A DNA stretch of 37,643 nt from a virus. Both the position numbers and the translations under genes were made by a program. The notes beneath the pieces were generated by a model. It was not told the DNA's origin. It did not search any database and saw only the letters and a list, made by a program, of their open reading frames with translations. The stretch covers positions 1 through 37,643 of IMG/VR virus record IMGVR_UViG_3300047629_000010; one strand, given 5' to 3'. Positions 6,987 to 37,643 of this stretch are shown here, piece after piece (within the stretch, counting starts at the first letter, position 1; every line of letters starts with the position of its first letter).

Positions 6987-7112
6987 ATGAAAATAAAACT
7001 ACCGACTGTAAAGTGCCTCAGATGCCACCATAAGTGGACCCCTCGAAAGAATTTCCTCCCGAAGCGGTGCGCGGGTTGCCTGTCGAGGAATTGGAGAAAG
7101 GAGAAACCATGA
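6987..7112 (+). CDS. Small zinc-ribbon protein, leaderless first gene of accessory operon
   Basis: This 41-residue protein carries CLRCHHKWTPRK followed by CAGC and a basic tail (RNWRKEKP). It is the same layout as the 48-residue protein at 1314, including the W.PRK stretch between the knuckles. The ATG is 6 bases after the -10 box and has no ribosome-binding site. It ends over the ATG of the next gene. It is probably a DNA- or RNA-binding peptide; a role in regulating the two operons is inference. Confidence 0.7.
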   Translation: MKIKLPTVKCLRCHHKWTPRKNFLPKRCAGCLSRNWRKEKP

Positions 7113-7822
7113 AAGCTTTTTTGAATGATGAGAAGGTCAAGGAACAATATCTCGGGCGCGTTCGCGCTCATGCGGCGGCTGACCAGTTGGTGAAAGGCCA
7201 GTACTGGAAGGACGGGAAGGGTTGCGCGGTTGGTTGCACCATCCACTCGAACGATCACTCAGCCTATGAATGCGAATTGGGAATCCCCCGAAGTATCGCT
7301 CGTCTCGAAGATGGAATCTTTGAAGGACTCCCGAACGATCTGGCGCAGACGTGGCCAGATCGGTTTTTGTCGGCCATTAAAATTGGCGCTGATCTGTCTC
7401 AGGTAACGGCGAAGTTCATGCTCTGGCTTTTGGCTGATCCGAAAGATGGAGTGATTAGGTTCGCCAAGAAAGAGAAAACGAAAGCGGCTATACAAATAGT
7501 GATCGACCTTTACGAGCGGAAGCTGAAAGGTGACGAACCAACAAGTGCGGAATGGATAAAAGCAAGAAACGCCGACGCCGCCGCCGCCTACGCCGCCGAC
7601 GCCGCCGACGCCTACGCCGCCTACGCCGCCTACGCCGCCGCCGACGCCGCCTACGCCGCCTACGCCGCCGACGCCGCCGACGCCTACGCCGCCTACGCCG
7701 CCTACGCCGCCTACGCCGCCGACGCCTACGCCGGCGGCGGCGCCGACGCCTACGCCGCCCGACATGCTCACTACGTTCGTATGTCCGAAAAACTTCTTGA
7801 GTTACTACGAGACGCGGCGTGA
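7109..7822 (+). CDS. Phage protein with Ala-Tyr/Asp low-complexity repeat domain
   Basis: This 237-residue protein starts at an ATG overlapping the previous stop, after a GGAGAAA site. Residues 1 to 150 form a folded domain, with QLVKGQYWKDGKGCAVGC at about 29 to 46. This N-terminus recurs in environmental phage proteins that also carry alanine-rich repeats. Residues about 153 to 217 are made almost only of Ala, Tyr and Asp (units such as AAYAADAADAY), encoded by GCC, TAC and GAC. A short helical C-terminus (YVRMSEKLLELLRDAA) follows. The function is unknown. Confidence 0.7.
   Translation: MKAFLNDEKVKEQYLGRVRAHAAADQLVKGQYWKDGKGCAVGCTIHSNDHSAYECELGIPRSIARLEDGIFEGLPNDLAQTWPDRFLSAIKIGADLSQVTAKFMLWLLADPKDGVIRFAKKEKTKAAIQIVIDLYERKLKGDEPTSAEWIKARNADAAAAYAADAADAYAAYAAYAAADAAYAAYAADAADAYAAYAAYAAYAADAYAGGGADAYAARHAHYVRMSEKLLELLRDAA
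7567..7760 (+). repeat. GCC/TAC/GAC codon-scale low-complexity repeat
   Basis: About 190 bases consist of GCC codons with TAC or GAC every second or third codon, plus a short GGC run near 7731. It encodes Ala with Tyr or Asp. The opposite strand reads as long poly-Arg or Gly/Val frames, which are artefacts. Copy number may be misassembled. Confidence 0.9.
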
Positions 7823-7935
7823 AACCGTTCGCGTGTTGCGACTGCCGGGCAGAATTCGGAATCCGCTTTGTAGCGGTCCTCCACGCTTTCTTTACTCGGC
7901 ATCTGATGATCGAAAAACAAGGAGAGAAGAGATGA
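7819..7935 (+). CDS. Possible tiny CxxC protein overlapping the pilin-like gene
   Basis: A 38-residue ORF with GTG overlapping the previous stop and a TGA overlapping the next ATG. That double coupling is the rule in this genome. The N-terminus has FACCDCRAEFG. Its end is encoded by the first copy of the repeated leader cassette (7898..7928). It may only serve to deliver ribosomes to the next start. Confidence 0.42.
   Translation: MKPFACCDCRAEFGIRFVAVLHAFFTRHLMIEKQGEKR
7898..7928 (+). repeat. Leader cassette copy 1 (of three)
   Basis: A 31-base segment beginning GGCATCTGATGAT and ending in a GGAGAG Shine-Dalgarno recurs identically at 8331..8361. A diverged copy is at 8954..8981. Each lies just before a start codon (7932, 8364, 8988), so the three genes share a duplicated ribosome-binding region. 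Confidence 0.85.
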
Positions 7936-8324
7936 AAAAAGGTTTCACGCTTATTGAGCTGATGATTGTCGTGGCGATTATTGGGATTCTGGCGGCGGTC
8001 ATCGTCCCGAGTGTCGGTGTGATCACGATCATGCCGCACTACTCCGACGGAGAGCGGACGGGCGTTGTCGTCAAGTTGAGTAAGAAGGGCGTCGTCTGGA
8101 AAACGTGGGAAGGCGCGATGAACATCGGGTCAATGTCTACGGATGGGAACGGTGTTGCGGTTCCGACGGTGTTCGAGTTTTCGGTGAAGGACGATGCGCT
8201 TGCCGAAGAAATTTCCGAATCGGCGCGCGCCGGGAAAAGGGTCACGCTTGTTTATGAACAGGCTTTGATGCGCTCGCGGCGAGATGGGGACACGCCCTAC
8301 CTGATCGTGTCGGTTAAGAAGTGA
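7932..8324 (+). CDS. Prepilin-signal fusion to a bacterial YSDG/KTWEG envelope domain
   Basis: This 130-residue protein begins MKKGFTLIELMIVVAIIGIL. That is a full type IV prepilin leader: cleavage after Gly4, Phe at +1, Glu at +5 (Glu9) and a roughly 20-residue hydrophobic helix. Residues 37 to 130 do not look like a pilin head. They match a conserved bacterial membrane-anchored protein family marked by YSDGERTGVVVKLSKKG and VWKTWEG, sometimes mislabelled 6-phosphogluconate dehydrogenase. The phage product should be processed by a host prepilin peptidase or stay anchored in the inner membrane. Its start has a strong GGAGAG site in the repeated leader cassette. Confidence 0.82.
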   Translation: MKKGFTLIELMIVVAIIGILAAVIVPSVGVITIMPHYSDGERTGVVVKLSKKGVVWKTWEGAMNIGSMSTDGNGVAVPTVFEFSVKDDALAEEISESARAGKRVTLVYEQALMRSRRDGDTPYLIVSVKK

Positions 8325-8363: not shown

Positions 8364-8726
8364 ATGTCTGAAAAAGTACGAGTTCAGGAGTTGACGATTG
8401 ACGGCGAGGTGTACGTTCCGAAGAACAGTGTTCCCGTTGTTGAAGGGGATTACTTCATCGTTCGCACTTATTCCGCTGGTGTGTTCGCTGGCGAGATCGT
8501 GAGCAGGAACGGGAAAGAAGTCGTGATGAAGAACGCGCGGCGGTTGTGGTACTGGACGGGCGCGGCTTCCCTTTCTCAGTTGGTTGTCGAAGGAACGAAC
8601 AATCCTTCTCAGTGTAAATTCCCCGTCGCCGTTCCGCGCGTGGAGTTGACTGAGGCCATCGAGATTCTTGACGTGACCGCGAAGGCCCGAAAGAGCATCG
8701 AGAGCGTGAAGATATGGGAAGCGTAG
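8364..8726 (+). CDS. DUF6948-like phage protein
   Basis: A 120-residue protein with the recognisable core FIVRTYSAGVFAGEI, then VVMKNARRLWYWTGAASLSQL and a CKFPVAVP segment. This pattern matches the phage family I know as DUF6948. It has no established function and is often found next to glycine-rich repeat ORFs, as here. The gene ends inside the start of the Gly-Ser/Asp repeat ORF. It uses the second leader cassette for translation. Confidence 0.72.
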   Translation: MSEKVRVQELTIDGEVYVPKNSVPVVEGDYFIVRTYSAGVFAGEIVSRNGKEVVMKNARRLWYWTGAASLSQLVVEGTNNPSQCKFPVAVPRVELTEAIEILDVTAKARKSIESVKIWEA

Positions 8727-8962
8727 AAGCCAACGGGTCCGGGTCCGGGTCCGGGTCCGGGGACGGGTCCGGGGACGGGTCCGGGTACGGGGACGGGGAC
8801 GGGTACGGGTACGGGTCCGGGGACGGGTCCGGGTCCGGGGACGGGTCCGGGTCCGGGGACGGGTCCGGGTCCGGGGACGGGTCCGGGTCCGGGGACGGGT
8901 CCGGGTCCGGGGACGGGTACGGGTCCGGGGACGGGTCCGGGGACGGGTCGAAGGGCATCTGA
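8714..8962 (+). CDS. Gly-Ser/Asp/Tyr repeat protein
   Basis: This 82-residue ORF consists almost entirely of Gly alternating with Ser, Asp or Tyr (for example GSGSGDGSGDGSGYGDG), encoded by GGG with TCC, GAC or TAC. It begins at an ATG inside the previous gene and lacks a clear ribosome-binding site, so it may be translated by coupling. Similar repeat ORFs follow DUF6948-like genes in other phages as I recall, which supports it being real. It should be disordered; a sticky or phase-separating role is speculation. Confidence 0.6.
   Translation: MGSVEANGSGSGSGSGDGSGDGSGYGDGDGYGYGSGDGSGSGDGSGSGDGSGSGDGSGSGDGSGSGDGYGSGDGSGDGSKGI
8737..8949 (+). repeat. GGG-TCC/GAC/TAC codon-scale low-complexity repeat
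   Basis: About 210 bases alternate GGG with TCC, GAC or TAC. A recurring larger unit is GGGTCCGGGTCCGGGGAC. As in the repeat at 7567, the variable codons include TAC and GAC. Copy number may be unreliable in a short-read assembly. Confidence 0.9.
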
Positions 8963-22858: not shown

Positions 22859-23002
22859 ATGGCACAGTCAAGCATCGAAACTACCACAACGCTAAACGGC
22901 CTCTATAAGGAGGTCTATGCGGACAGAATCAAGGATCTTGTTCCGGAGTCGGACATCTTGCTGAAGATGGACAACTTCGTTTCTAAAGATCAGCGTGAGG
23001 GT
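22859..23002 (+). CDS. Major capsid protein, exon 1 (residues 1 to 48)
   Basis: AAGGAG precedes the ATG. This exon encodes AQSSIETTTTLNGLYKEV... up to DQREG. Read on, it hits TGA at 23009. The 3' part of the capsid gene is open from 23771 in a compatible phase. Joining 23002 to 23771 gives ...DQREG-NKYHQPVIL..., the expected text of an N4gp56-like major capsid protein, total 428 residues. The exon ends in T23002, as the 5' splice site of a group I intron requires. Confidence 0.85.
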
Positions 23003-23770
23003 GGAATCTGATATAAAGGCATATGGCAACAGCGAAATATCATCGAGAGTGGAGAATGAAAAACCCTGAGAAATCGGCGGCATACCAGCGGGATTACAAG
23101 AAACGTAATTTCGCCAAATTGCAGGCGTATCAGAAAGCCTATCGCGCCGCTCATCAGGGTCGTCATAATGAGACGAACGAGGTCTGGAAGAAAAACAATC
23201 CAGAGCTTCATAAAGAGCTACAGGCTTTTTATCGAGGCACCCTCCGGGGCCGTTATTCTCATTGCAAGTCGTCCGCGAAAACTCGCGGGATTCCTTGCAC
23301 TCTCACCTTCGAGCAGTACGCGCTCGTAGCGACGGAGCATTGTTACTATTGCGACGATCTGCTGATTGGGATTCACGGTACGGGGCTTGACCGCATTGAC
23401 GCACAAAAAGGTTATACCGCCGACAACGTGATTCCCTGCTGTTTCCGATGTAATCGGGTGAAAGGCCACGATCTGACCGTTGAAGAAACGAAGGTCATGG
23501 TGGACGCCCTCCTGAAGTATCGAAAGAAATTGCCCTCAATAAATCCCGAAATATCGGTGGATAGCCCACCAGCGAAAGCTGAGGCCAATACCGAGATAAT
23601 CCAACTTCCAACAAGGTTGGGCATCGTAGAGCGTAGCTGTGAAACTCCTGAGAGGGAGAATATAACCAGCCACGAGTCCGGGACACCGCCTACCAGCGGT
23701 GAAAATGTACGCCAGACTGCCGAGTAATCGGTAGAGGCGGAGATAAAAAACTCCGCGTGAATACGAATCG
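23003..23770 (+). mobile_element. Group I intron in the major capsid gene, carrying an HNH endonuclease
   Basis: The intron is 768 bases. The exon 1 end TGAGGGT (22996..23002) pairs over 7 bp with GCCCTCA (23532..23538), with the required wobble T23002.G23532: this is P1. The three bases before it, ATT (23529..23531), pair with AAT (23771..23773), the start of exon 2: this is P10. The intron ends in G23770. The 3' part is highly structured: GGTGG/CCACC (23556..23570), CAGC-GAAA-GCTG, CACCGC/GCGGTG, CCGA-GTAA-TCGG (23720..23731) and GCGGAG/CTCCGC (23737..23756). I could not place P3/P7 by eye, so the subclass is open. Confidence 0.85.
23023..23727 (+). CDS. Intron-encoded HNH homing endonuclease
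   Basis: A 234-residue protein. Residues 1 to 70 are basic helices with repeats (YHREWRMKNPEK, YQRDYKKRN) that probably bind DNA. Residues about 105 to 150 hold the HNH site: HCYYCDDLL, GTGLDRID and GYTADNVIPCCFRCNRVKG, with the zinc cysteines and the catalytic region. The enzyme would cut intron-free capsid genes near the insertion point and so spread the intron. The last about 70 residues run through the intron core and look unlike protein, so function probably needs only the first 165 or so. Most of the ORF lies in the P1 loop. Confidence 0.85.
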   Translation: MATAKYHREWRMKNPEKSAAYQRDYKKRNFAKLQAYQKAYRAAHQGRHNETNEVWKKNNPELHKELQAFYRGTLRGRYSHCKSSAKTRGIPCTLTFEQYALVATEHCYYCDDLLIGIHGTGLDRIDAQKGYTADNVIPCCFRCNRVKGHDLTVEETKVMVDALLKYRKKLPSINPEISVDSPPAKAEANTEIIQLPTRLGIVERSCETPERENITSHESGTPPTSGENVRQTAE

Positions 23771-24913
23771 AATAAATATCACCAGCCGGTCATCCTCGCG
23801 CTTCCCTCGGGAGCGACATGGGGAGTCGGAGTTGTAACTCTGGTCAACGCAATTGCCTCCCAGATGGGAGACGCGCAGATTCAGGGTTCGGCCATCACGC
23901 ACCGGGATCTTCTCGCTTACGACGCGGCGGCGAAAGCGGCCAAAGGCGGAAAGCAGAGCTTCGCGGAAGCGACTTCGCTGATCGTCAAGAACCTCGTCAA
24001 AGCAACGTCGAAGTTCCTCGAACTCGACCTCCTGTACGGAGGCGGTGGACTCGTCCAGACCTCGACCATCGCGGCGACCAGCGCCACGACCTCGACGGTG
24101 ACGATCACCTACAACACGTGGGCGCCGGCCATCTTCTCCGGCATGGAAAACGCTCAGGTGCAGTTCTACAACGCGGGCGCTCTCGTTTCTTCGGGCGCGG
24201 ATTCCGTGTTCACGATCACCAGCATGAACATCGTCCCGGCGTCATCGACGGTCGGTGGAACTCTGCTCGTGACCGGAACGCCTACGGGCACGACCACGCT
24301 TCAGGCGCTCTCTGGAACCACGCTCGACGTGTTCTGGAACACCGCCTTCGGCAACCAGATGACGGGCCTGAAAACCATCCTGACCACGACCTCGGGGAAC
24401 CTGTTCAACGTCAACATGAGCAACTTTGCTCTGTGGCAGTCGAACATCTTCGACGTGGCCTCGACGCAGTTGACCTTCGGCAAACTTCAGGCGGCCATTG
24501 CGCTTGGTGTCAACCGGGGACTGGAAACGGACTCCATCACGCTCATCAGCCCGAACACGTTCGCCAACTTGGTGGACGAGCAGGCGGGCGCGCGTCTGTA
24601 CGACAGCTCGTACAGCGGTGCGAAGGGCGAGAATGGATTCCGGAAGCTGGAATTCTTCGGTCCGAACGGCGTGAACACGATCCAGCCTCATATCTTCATG
24701 CATCAGGGTGAAGCGATGATTCTCCCTGAAGATGAAGTGACGCGGATGGGTCCGGTCGAGAGTGTGACCAACACGCTCCCGGGTATGCCCGGAGACTTCT
24801 TCGTTCAGTCGCAGACGTACGCGGCTTACGAACTGCGTTGCTACGCGAATCAGGCCATCTTCATTGAAGCTCCGGCTCATGCCGTCTTCCTGAAGAACAT
24901 CACGAACGTCTAA
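23771..24913 (+). CDS. Major capsid protein, exon 2 (residues 49 to 428)
   Basis: The frame is open from 23771 and encodes 380 residues starting NKYHQPVILALPSG. It contains GDAQIQGSAITHRDLLAYDAAAKA, a helical ATSLIVKNL region, an insertion rich in Thr/Ser, and a C-terminal AIFIEAPAHAVFLKNI. These match the N4gp56-like HK97-fold capsid family. No in-frame start precedes it until ATG 23864, which would remove the conserved YHQP segment. So the protein must be made from a spliced mRNA, not as a separate piece. The product forms the icosahedral shell. Confidence 0.85.
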   Translation, partial: NKYHQPVILALPSGATWGVGVVTLVNAIASQMGDAQIQGSAITHRDLLAYDAAAKAAKGGKQSFAEATSLIVKNLVKATSKFLELDLLYGGGGLVQTSTIAATSATTSTVTITYNTWAPAIFSGMENAQVQFYNAGALVSSGADSVFTITSMNIVPASSTVGGTLLVTGTPTGTTTLQALSGTTLDVFWNTAFGNQMTGLKTILTTTSGNLFNVNMSNFALWQSNIFDVASTQLTFGKLQAAIALGVNRGLETDSITLISPNTFANLVDEQAGARLYDSSYSGAKGENGFRKLEFFGPNGVNTIQPHIFMHQGEAMILPEDEVTRMGPVESVTNTLPGMPGDFFVQSQTYAAYELRCYANQAIFIEAPAHAVFLKNITNV

Positions 24914-28359: not shown

Positions 28360-30854
28360 TGACGATGACGCTCAACAATTTGGGCCTGTTCACTTACGCC
28401 AACTCGCTCAGTCAGGTTCCCCCGGGCGCGATGCTCGCGGCCTTGAACGTCGTGATCGACAAGCCGGGGATTGCAGAGACTCGTCGAGGGATGGATCAGT
28501 TCGGCACCCTGCTTTCCACGCCCATCTACAAGATGTTCGCGTTCCAGAATCGTCTGCTCGCGCACCATTCCAACTCTCTGGCCTATGACTCCGATGGAAA
28601 CGGGACGTGGGTTGATTACGCGGGAACGTTCGTCGCTCCGACGGGCGAAAGGATGAGATCGACGCAGGCGAACAAGAATTTCTACTTCACCACGAACAAC
28701 GGCGTCTACAAGATCGACACGCTGACGAACAACCCCTATCCGGCGGGAGGGATCGCCGCTTTGGACGTGACCGCTTCCGCGACGGGATCTTCTGGATTTC
28801 TGAACGACACGTCCCAGTGCGCTTACCGGATCACATGGGTCTACACGGACGCGGAAAACAATCTGATCGAAGGCGCGCCGTCGATGGCGGCTTCTTTGTC
28901 GAACAACAGCGGTCATGCGGTGAACGCTTCGGTGACATTCACGGTTCCGCAGGGCGTGACGACGGCTTTCTCGTACCGCGTTTACCGGACTCCGCAGACG
29001 GGATCGTTGTCGATTCCTCCCGGAGACACATTCCAGCTTGCGTTCGTGGGCCAGCCGACAGGCGGGCAGATTTCCGCGCTCTCCGTGACGATTACGGACG
29101 TGACGCCGGATTTGCTTCTGGGACTCACGCTTTATACGTCCCCCGGCCAGCAGGGAGAATTCCAGACGAACAACCCGCCTCCCCTCTGTAAAGACCTCTG
29201 TACGTTTCTTGGGATGACGTTTTATTTCAACTGCTCGACGTTGCAGAGCTTCTACACGGCGTTGATTTCCGTCGGTTCACCGAATGGAATTCAGGTGGGA
29301 GATACATTCACGATTGTCCTGAACAACGGAGGAGGGCCGACGCTGACGTACACGGGCGCTTCGTCCAACAACTTCGCTTCTCAGCAGTTCAAGGTGGACA
29401 CCTCGGGAACCGTCGCCACGAACATCGACGCGACCGCGAGAAATCTCGTGGCCGCCATCAACCAAGATCCCACGAATTCCAAGGTCTACGCCTATTACAT
29501 TTCCGGTTTCACCGAGCTTCCCGGCCAGATCGTGTTACAGAATAGGAACCTGTTCGATATCGCGTTCCTGCCGAACTGTTCTCGTACCGGCGTGTTCTCG
29601 AATATCACTGACGGAACCACGCCTTCGACGAACAACACGGTGAAGAATGGCGTCTATGTCTCCAAGGTTTCCCAACCGGAAGCGGTTCCGACCGTGAACT
29701 TGATTTTCGTCGGCTCAGGGGATCAGGATATTTTCCGGGGATACGCGCTTCGGGATGCCGTGATCGTGGAATCTGCCGGAGGTGTGTTCCGGATCACCGG
29801 AACCAGCCCCGATTCTCTCGTGGTCACTCCGTTCGATAACACGGTCATTCAGTTCGGCAACGAAACCGGCGTCCCCCTGAACAACTCCGTTTATTCCTTC
29901 ACGTCTCAGGGCATTGTCTCCATCACGGAAAGCGGGTCCCAGATCATGTCCAGAAACATCGAAGGCGATTTGCTCCAACTCTCGACGCCCCAACTTTATC
30001 CGTCGTTCAAGTCTATCGCGTTCGGCGTTTCTTACGAATCCGACCGGAAATACATCCTTGCCTTGGCTTCGGGAACGAGCGACACGGTTTCTACCCTTCA
30101 GTTCGTCTACAACTGGATCACGCAGGCTTTCTCGACGTGGGACTTCTCCATCACGGCGGGCATCGTGAATCCCGCGACGAACCTTCTCTACTTCGCAGGA
30201 GACGATGGGCAGGTTCTTCAAGAGCGCAAGACCTATACCTTGACTGATTACGTGGACCGCCACTGGTCCGTGGCGATTCTCAGCAATGCGGGCCTCGTCA
30301 TCACGCTCGATTCCGTGGCTCACGCGCAGGTGGGATACTTTCTGGCGCAGGGTGTGGGTTCGGGATCGGTCCAGCTTTCCTCGGAGATCACCGCCGTCGA
30401 TACCGTCGCCAAGACCGTGACCGTGACGGACCTTCTCAACTGGACCGACGACACCGCAGGCATTTACCAGCCGATTGACTCCCAGATCACCTACTGCCCC
30501 CTGACTTGTGGATACCCGAACTTCATCAAGCGGTTCCAGCCCGTCATCCAGTTCATTTTCTCAGAATCGACTTTCGAGGAAGCGACAGTTTCGTTTACGA
30601 CCGATTTCTACACGACCGCCGAGAGCGTGACGCTTTCCCCGAACCTCTCTGGAGGATGGGGGACGTTCCCGTGGGGGACTCTGCCGTGGGGTGTCGCGGG
30701 GACGCCGCTTCAACTCATTCCGACGTATTTGACCAAAAACACCACGCTCGGACACTGGCTGAATATCTCGGTGGAGCTTCGGCAGGCGTTCCAGAATTTA
30801 TCGTTAAATGGGTGCAGTGGCTACTTCGACATTATTGCAGAACGGAGCCGATAA
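28356..30854 (+). CDS. Tail nozzle / stabilisation-like structural protein
   Basis: An 832-residue, almost entirely beta protein with overlapping ATGA start. The N-terminal text (LNNLGLFTYANSLSQVPPGAMLAALNVVIDKPG, with GxxxTRRG) is the phage stabilisation / nozzle pattern: 'gain of ALNV..D.PG..ETR'. Several beta-propeller-like repeats follow (LLAHHSNSLAYDSDG, NFYFTTNNGVYKIDT, YILALASGTSD). In podoviruses such proteins close the DNA channel below the adaptor. It is the largest gene in the window. An HNH gene follows one base after its stop. Confidence 0.75.
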   Translation: MMTMTLNNLGLFTYANSLSQVPPGAMLAALNVVIDKPGIAETRRGMDQFGTLLSTPIYKMFAFQNRLLAHHSNSLAYDSDGNGTWVDYAGTFVAPTGERMRSTQANKNFYFTTNNGVYKIDTLTNNPYPAGGIAALDVTASATGSSGFLNDTSQCAYRITWVYTDAENNLIEGAPSMAASLSNNSGHAVNASVTFTVPQGVTTAFSYRVYRTPQTGSLSIPPGDTFQLAFVGQPTGGQISALSVTITDVTPDLLLGLTLYTSPGQQGEFQTNNPPPLCKDLCTFLGMTFYFNCSTLQSFYTALISVGSPNGIQVGDTFTIVLNNGGGPTLTYTGASSNNFASQQFKVDTSGTVATNIDATARNLVAAINQDPTNSKVYAYYISGFTELPGQIVLQNRNLFDIAFLPNCSRTGVFSNITDGTTPSTNNTVKNGVYVSKVSQPEAVPTVNLIFVGSGDQDIFRGYALRDAVIVESAGGVFRITGTSPDSLVVTPFDNTVIQFGNETGVPLNNSVYSFTSQGIVSITESGSQIMSRNIEGDLLQLSTPQLYPSFKSIAFGVSYESDRKYILALASGTSDTVSTLQFVYNWITQAFSTWDFSITAGIVNPATNLLYFAGDDGQVLQERKTYTLTDYVDRHWSVAILSNAGLVITLDSVAHAQVGYFLAQGVGSGSVQLSSEITAVDTVAKTVTVTDLLNWTDDTAGIYQPIDSQITYCPLTCGYPNFIKRFQPVIQFIFSESTFEEATVSFTTDFYTTAESVTLSPNLSGGWGTFPWGTLPWGVAGTPLQLIPTYLTKNTTLGHWLNISVELRQAFQNLSLNGCSGYFDIIAERSR

Positions 30855-30855
30855 A

Positions 30856-31317
30856 ATGCCCTTCAAAGACCCCATTAAGAGACGAGAATATCACAGAGAA
30901 GCGACCCGACGTTTTCGAGAGAAGAACCCCGAACGTGCCAGAGAATTGGGCCGTATCAGCGACCGGAAGCGCTATCACAAGAGGCGCGCGGCGCAAAAAA
31001 TCTATCAACTTGAATGGCAACGGAAAAACAGGATAAAAAATCGTCTTTATAGCGTGAAATGGTTGTATGGCCTGACGCCAGTTGAATATGACCGTCTCTA
31101 TCAGGTTCAACAGGGTGCGTGTGCAATTTGCCATCGACATCAAACAGATATCAAAAGAACACTTCAAGTCGATCATTGCCACAAAACTGGACGGGTTCGG
31201 GGCCTTCTTTGTCTCCAATGTAATCTGTACGTGGGAGCTTTTGAGCGCGGCCAAAACCTGACCGTCGCCGTTCTCGTTGATCAGATCAAAAAATATCTGG
31301 ATGGACCGAATGGGTAG
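30856..31317 (+). CDS. Free-standing HNH / endonuclease VII-like homing endonuclease
   Basis: A 153-residue protein. Basic N-terminal helices (KRREYHREATRRFREKNPERA) are followed at about residues 70 to 140 by YGLTPVEYDRLYQVQQGACAIC, LQVDHCHKTGRVRGLLCLQCN. This is the recombination endonuclease VII fold: four zinc cysteines and a DHCH catalytic core. The flanking genes are both complete, so it is not in an intron. ATG 30856 is chosen because an in-frame ATG at 30808 lies deep in the nozzle gene. The end overlaps the downstream tail gene. Confidence 0.85.
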   Translation: MPFKDPIKRREYHREATRRFREKNPERARELGRISDRKRYHKRRAAQKIYQLEWQRKNRIKNRLYSVKWLYGLTPVEYDRLYQVQQGACAICHRHQTDIKRTLQVDHCHKTGRVRGLLCLQCNLYVGAFERGQNLTVAVLVDQIKKYLDGPNG

Positions 31318-37401: not shown

Positions 37402-37643
37402 ACGTCATCACCGTCCAACGGAAGTTCTTCACCGACAAGACCACGGTAGGATTGTTGTCCATCGGTGGGCTTTCCGTTTGCGACACGCTGGAACCCACCT
37501 GCCGAGCGGATGGGGTGAAGGTTCTGGGATCAACCGCGATTCCGGCGGGAACCTACCCTCTGACGATCAACTTCTCCAACCGCTTCCAAAGGCTTATGCC
37601 TCGACTTTTGAACGTGCCGAACTTCGACGGGATTCTGATCCAC
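37398..37643 (+). CDS. DUF5675 family protein, 5' part (continues at base 1)
   Basis: ATG 37398 overlaps the previous TGA (ATGA). The frame encodes NVITVQRKFFTDKTTVGLLS and runs in phase through the terminal overlap to the stop at 322, giving a 146-residue DUF5675 protein on the circle. It is the first gene of the lysis module, followed by a putative holin and a peptidase. Confidence 0.87.
   Translation, partial: MNVITVQRKFFTDKTTVGLLSIGGLSVCDTLEPTCRADGVKVLGSTAIPAGTYPLTINFSNRFQRLMPRLLNVPNFDGILIH
37517..37643. repeat. Terminal direct repeat (right copy)
   Basis: This is identical to 1..127. Removing one copy gives a 37,516-bp circle. Confidence 0.93.

Follow-up and report, generated by a model that had tools for sequence, protein, structure and literature searches.

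A predicted group I intron with an internal HNH gene in the major capsid gene of an uncultured phage

The split capsid gene

The window, that is, the whole stretch of viral DNA analysed (37,643 nucleotides, IMG/VR record IMGVR_UViG_3300047629_000010), carries a major capsid gene in two exons (Table 1). Exon 1, read directly from the sequence, opens with ATG 22859 downstream of a ribosome-binding-like AAGGAG, and its last base is T23002. Left unspliced, its frame meets an in-frame TGA at 23009–23011, and the exon 2 frame is open from 23771 with its earliest in-frame start codon at ATG 23864, as the original prediction had described. Hence, judging by the frames, a full-length capsid protein requires splicing, which had also been claimed.

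Table 1. Features of the capsid locus (window coordinates)
Feature	Position	Strand	Description and evidence
Major capsid gene, exon 1	22859..23002	+	48 codons, ending in KDQREG; aligns with residues 1–48 of L002/L003
P1, 5' strand	22996..23002	+	TGAGGGT; 7 bp with GCCCTCA at 23532–23538, including U.G at the splice site
Group I intron (predicted)	23003..23770	+	768 nt, terminal G23770; exact gap relative to intron-less alleles and match of covariance model R1
HNH endonuclease ORF	23023..23727	+	234 aa; starts in the P1 loop and crosses the core as far as P9; HNH domain at about residues 73–168
Internal guide sequence	23529..23538	+	AUU (P10), then GCCCUCA (P1); same arrangement in relatives
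P3, 5' strand	23544–23548	+	hand fold, standard pairs
P4	23554–58/23590–94	+	hand fold; strands conserved in the JCL1032 intron and L084
P5 with GAAA loop	23564–23585	+	hand fold
P6	23595–23625	+	hand fold
P7, 5' strand	23629..23635	+	G-A(bulge)-GCGUA; pairs with UACGCC at 23708–23713; covaries in the family, model R1
P7.1 and P7.2	23636..23670	+	P7.1 (GCUG/CAGC) around P7.2 (CUCCU/GGGAG), and conserved AAUAUAA; hand fold, covariation, R1
Segment with the CACGAGU motif	23671..23713	+	hand fold, covariation, R1
P3, 3' strand	23679–83	+	hand fold; P3 partner test
P8	23684–89/23696–701	+	hand fold, R1
J8/7, then P7 3' strand	P7 3' strand at 23708–13	+	J8/7 is AAAAUG; hand fold, R1
P9 hairpin	23717–23734	+	hand fold, covariation, R1
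P9.1 hairpin	23737–23756	+	loop AUAAAAAA; hand fold, covariation, R1
Major capsid gene, exon 2	23771..24913	+	380 codons and stop; full-length match to L002, L003 and L004

The search for intron-less relatives yielded two, L002 and L003, which are 81% and 78% identical to the window over exon 2. Both are gapless at the junction, reading CGCGAAGG(A/T)AACAAATACCATCA(A/G), with AAAGAACAGCGCGAAGGTAACAAATACCATCAG across it in L003, where the window has CAGCGTGAGGGT, 768 nt, and then AATAAATATCACC. Hence the insert is 23003–23770. The protein alignment by itself also permits borders one nucleotide over (23001/23769). In group I introns exon 1 ends in U (T in the DNA) and the intron ends in G, and by this rule 23002/23770 was chosen over the shifted pair. 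The split of the capsid gene at T23002 and G23770 is thus borne out by the intron-less alleles, and the joined protein proposed at the outset, REG-NKYHQPV, is what both relatives encode straight across. Their structural genes are syntenic with those of the window, and neither has the HNH gene at the capsid site.

The major head protein family PHROG 14242 is matched by 24 of 28 capsid relatives, and exon 2 alone gives weak family matches. The predicted structure of the L002 protein (pLDDT 82, pTM 0.83) matches HK97-fold phage capsids (Foldseek, E down to 2.7e-9); on this model, the capsid family of the window belongs to the HK97-type fold. Of the original label, an N4gp56-like major capsid protein, the major capsid part stands on PHROG 14242 and the HK97 fold, and the N4gp56 part is unsupported: family profile searches gave no N4gp56 match to the window capsid or its relatives. 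NF033394 (capsid_maj_Podo) gave a sub-threshold match, 30 bits against a cut-off of 80. No capsid relative was found in the bacterial and archaeal genomes searched, and among the deposited phages the sole match was Silvanigrella phage CP017838.

The guide sequence and the catalytic core

Both pairings claimed for the splice sites are present: the 7-bp P1 with the wobble at the splice site, and P10 between ATT at 23529–23531 and exon 2 AAT at 23771–23773. GCCCTCA occurs anywhere in 3.8% of shuffled introns; when only the 35 nt immediately 5' of P3 are considered, the figure drops to 0.15%. In all seven capsid introns whose ends could be joined, the one in the window included, exon 1 ends in T, P1 has 7–8 bp with a U.G pair, and the last base is G.

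A complete group I fold (P1, P10, P3–P8, P9 and P9.1) can be drawn by hand with all pairs standard. This includes the P4–P6 domain, whose P4 strands recur in the JCL1032 intron considered below and in L084, and P7 with its bulge and G-C guanosine site, the P3/P7 pseudoknot, P8 and a purine-rich J8/7. P3 has only 5 bp and P7.1 only 4 bp. The P7.1/P7.2 helices between P7 and P3 are present and covary; P7.2 is nested in P7.1, unlike in the description of group IA2 introns (PMC3428280). A placement of the 3' strand of P7 at CCAGCC was dropped, as GAGCGUA/UACGCC taken for P7, with CCAGC in P7.1, fits better and is confirmed by the family. A group II intron is ruled out, since an in-frame GUGYG...AY is impossible at these borders. 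A loose group I descriptor was discarded as evidence: it fitted 0.3% of shuffles, yet also some 10% of natural tiles. Since it does not discriminate, we sought relatives of the intron.

The intron family and its covariance model

The motif AAUAUAA...CACGAGU is common to the window intron and two capsid inserts of relatives. A scan with AGAATATAA-N(4-7)-CACGAGT-NC produced at least 120 stretches. In the 74 distinct cores among the matches listed, the P7 strands on either side of the motif pair with each other, and a swap in the bulge is compensated, A-C-bulge going with U and G-A-bulge with C. The window has the second form.

From 42 aligned cores, leaving out the window and the known capsid-gene introns, we constructed the covariance model R1. 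In this alignment 96% of the cells are paired, and the covariation is 0.70, compared with 0.185 for shuffles, which do not preserve relatedness, and 0.07–0.15 for slid versions of the structure, which do. In the window R1 matches 23625–23763 over its full length (95.3 bits; E 1.4e-18, roughly calibrated) with zero non-standard pairs, and this is the sole match in 37.6 kb. The scores of other capsid introns are 134 bits (L067), 127 bits (L047) and 51–56 bits (L045, L033 and L034). P3, which a nested model cannot hold, was tested apart: its partner is present in 33 of 72 members, whereas shuffled partners gave 6 on average and 13 at most. By inspection, R1-family introns also sit in terminase, tape measure and polymerase-like genes, and a consensus-like query of the family matched 49 deposited phage records. 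BLASTN of the window core against phages gave no match, and an exact 21-mer of the core was absent from the viral contigs searched.

The Rfam group I scan of 23003..23770, named beforehand as a test that could refute the intron, came out negative. RF00028 gave no match at any threshold tried (up to E 10) in the window, the insert region or the core alone, and all other Rfam families yielded nothing relevant in these three either. A match to RF00028 is the output of a detection model and not a biological criterion. When the same model was applied to 12 loci holding family members, L067, L084, L095 and L098 being among the loci scanned, four scored 66–82 bits and the others gave nothing at the gathering cut-off; the capsid insert of L057 itself scores 81 bits. 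The four scores tie the R1 family to group I. RF00028 misses the window intron because it detects this subfamily poorly, and the family seems to be under-represented in that model.

The miss would also suit an HNH gene inserted with no ribozyme around it. The capsid would then be made from two pieces, begin at the internal ATG 23864, or be translated by ribosomes that bypass the insert; HNH genes inserted out of frame and lacking any detectable intron have been reported (PMC11855218). We consider this very improbable in view of the full covarying group I core (E 1.4e-18), P1 and P10 in their places, and the exact empty alleles; moreover, a protein started at 23864 would lose the N-terminal arm and 31 residues of exon 2. 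Equally improbable is a decayed or non-splicing intron, or an assembly chimera, which would leave the phage devoid of a functional capsid. The locus does come from a single metagenomic record, but every R1 helix is intact, the HNH frame and both exons are open, the syntenic structural genes are intact, and a 127-bp terminal repeat points to a closed genome. Taken together, the intron-less alleles, the covariance model, the covariation and the JCL1032 relative strongly support, at the level of sequence, a group I intron with the borders in Table 1.

The HNH gene and the proposed mechanism

The HNH ORF matches PHROGs 3322, 1035 and 3118 (E 6e-14 to 7e-12) and has no match in Pfam. Relatives identified by the HNH protein amount to one distant locus. 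The gene occupies the P1 loop, and its frame runs on through the guide, P3–P8 and the 3' strand of P7 to a stop in the P9 loop. With the gene in that loop, the guide is displaced to intron position 530, 529 nt away from the splice site, compared with positions 9–16 in the six relatives where a guide was found.

A long same-strand ORF over the core was seen in only 3 of the 74 family cores among the matches listed, a count that may be biased as these cores were picked for short loops; such an overlap is thus ruled out as a trait of the family. Other group I cores with overlapping ORFs have been described (PMC3984707, PMC3428280), and a review states that the expression of such ORFs is under tight control (PMC3984707).

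With near certainty, the capsid gene is split between codons 48 and 49 by a mobile group I (possibly IA-like) intron that would be removed by splicing and spread by HNH-dependent homing. The borders, the architecture, the HNH domain and the empty alleles are observed; catalysis, splicing in the cell, cleavage and homing are what these features lead us to infer. In the proposed course of events, the exon 1 end UGAGGGU would pair with the guide at 23532, a guanosine bound in P7 would attack after U23002, and the freed end of exon 1 would then attack after G23770, joining REG to NKYHQPV in a capsid protein of 428 residues. The HNH protein is most likely a homing endonuclease that would cut intron-less capsid alleles, the intron then being copied by repair. 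Besides the miss by RF00028, the following speaks against this account: P1 has to close over a large loop; the HNH frame covers the core, which could be disturbed by translation; and P3 and P7.1 have few base pairs.

The HNH frame holds the guide and the whole core, from P3 to the 3' strand of P7, and a ribosome would unfold the ribozyme. From this one may imagine that synthesis of the HNH protein and splicing of the capsid mRNA exclude each other, forming a translation-controlled switch; we regard this as unlikely, and if true, it would control when the capsid is made. The checkpoint role of splicing suggested in the original prediction is an idea based on the dependence of the capsid on splicing alone.

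Comparison with known introns

One close parallel is the intron in the terminase large subunit gene of Lactobacillus delbrueckii phage JCL1032. This gene, annotated with two exons (EU409559), scores 101 bits with R1, and its intron belongs to the same RNA family, with the same P4 strands, P7 with the G-A bulge, P7.1, CACGAG motif, P8 and P9.1. Its exon 1 ends in AACGGT, facing the guide GCCGTT. Unlike the window intron, it resides in a terminase gene, has no internal ORF and carries the guide near its 5' end; its P7.2 region is shorter, and P7 has GCAUA instead of GCGUA. JCL1032 is reported to have two self-splicing group I introns (Riipinen and Alatossava 2004, as cited in PMC6669764), and, to judge by the annotation of the record, these two probably include the terminase intron.

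Mycobacteriophage LittleE and lactococcal phage Tuc2009 are known examples of phages with an intron in the capsid gene (PMC3706429). LittleE, from Cluster J, has an intron of about 820 bp with an endonuclease gene in its major capsid gene; its splicing was shown by RT-PCR and protein sequencing, and its type is graded "most likely a group I" (PMC3706429). Compared by description and not by sequence, it resembles the window intron in that the exon ends in U and the intron in G. However, the LittleE endonuclease is encoded on the opposite strand, unlike the HNH ORF of the window.

The DNA polymerase gene of cyanophage Pf-WMP3 has a group IA2 intron with the HNH enzyme I-PfoP3I (PMC3428280). There the ORF spans P6a–P7.2 only, whereas in the window it extends from the P1 loop to P9, and P7.1 and P7.2 are joined by GUA, whereas the window has P7.2 inside P7.1.

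Since introns in capsid genes of phages are already known, the window adds a further well-supported example. The gene that its intron interrupts, in an uncultured phage, is essential and presumably expressed at a high level. The mildly unusual points are just two, the HNH gene overlapping the core and the multi-site capsid hotspot.

The capsid insertion hotspot

The capsid alignment covered 71 viral loci, found via N-terminal peptide patterns and hence not an unbiased survey, and ten of these contain inserts (L033, L034, L043, L045, L047, L048, L055, L057, L067 and L074). The ten lie within about 30 codons (approximately codons 47–75) at six or more positions. The window insert follows codon 48; those of L033 and L034 are in codon 51, those of L043 and L048 follow codon 52, that of L055 is in codon 55, and that of L067 follows an E-N-G aligned with Gly62. 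The L057 borders fit codon 50, and a guide searched for in this insert was not found. The L074 insert, apparently breaking the gene after codon 54, runs off the contig.

The endonuclease types, as judged from translations, differ among the inserts: HNH/endonuclease VII-like, GIY-YIG-like and others. As both the sites and the endonucleases differ, several intron lineages have entered one short stretch of the capsid gene, which has thus been invaded repeatedly. We found no prior report of such a hotspot in a literature search that reached few subscription journals.

The insert of L047 (1188–2959, about 1770 nt) contains GIY-YIG-like and HNH-like ORFs and an R1 core at 1920–2052. From its sequence, two tandem introns may interrupt this capsid gene.

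Many members of a large phage intron family escape the standard Rfam group I model and are recovered by the family-specific one. Therefore, capsid genes interrupted by such introns are probably annotated, wrongly, as broken or truncated.

Genome context

An exact direct terminal repeat of 127 bp is found at 1–127 and 37517–37643 of the window. Therefore, the record probably represents a complete genome of about 37.5 kb, circular or terminally redundant.

An endonuclease VII-like gene (30808–31317) is situated between two tail-region genes; it has the same place in the L003 genome and is absent from the L002 genome. By its sequence, it is probably a free-standing homing-type endonuclease. An ORF at 7932–8324 has a type IV prepilin N-terminal signal (Pfam N_methyl, E 1.4e-8), which is unusual for a phage. 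Two low-complexity coding repeats were observed, one Ala/Tyr/Asp-rich, at 7500–7800 inside the ORF 7034–7822, and the other at 8714–8962, Gly-Ser-Asp-rich on the plus strand and Pro-rich on the minus strand.
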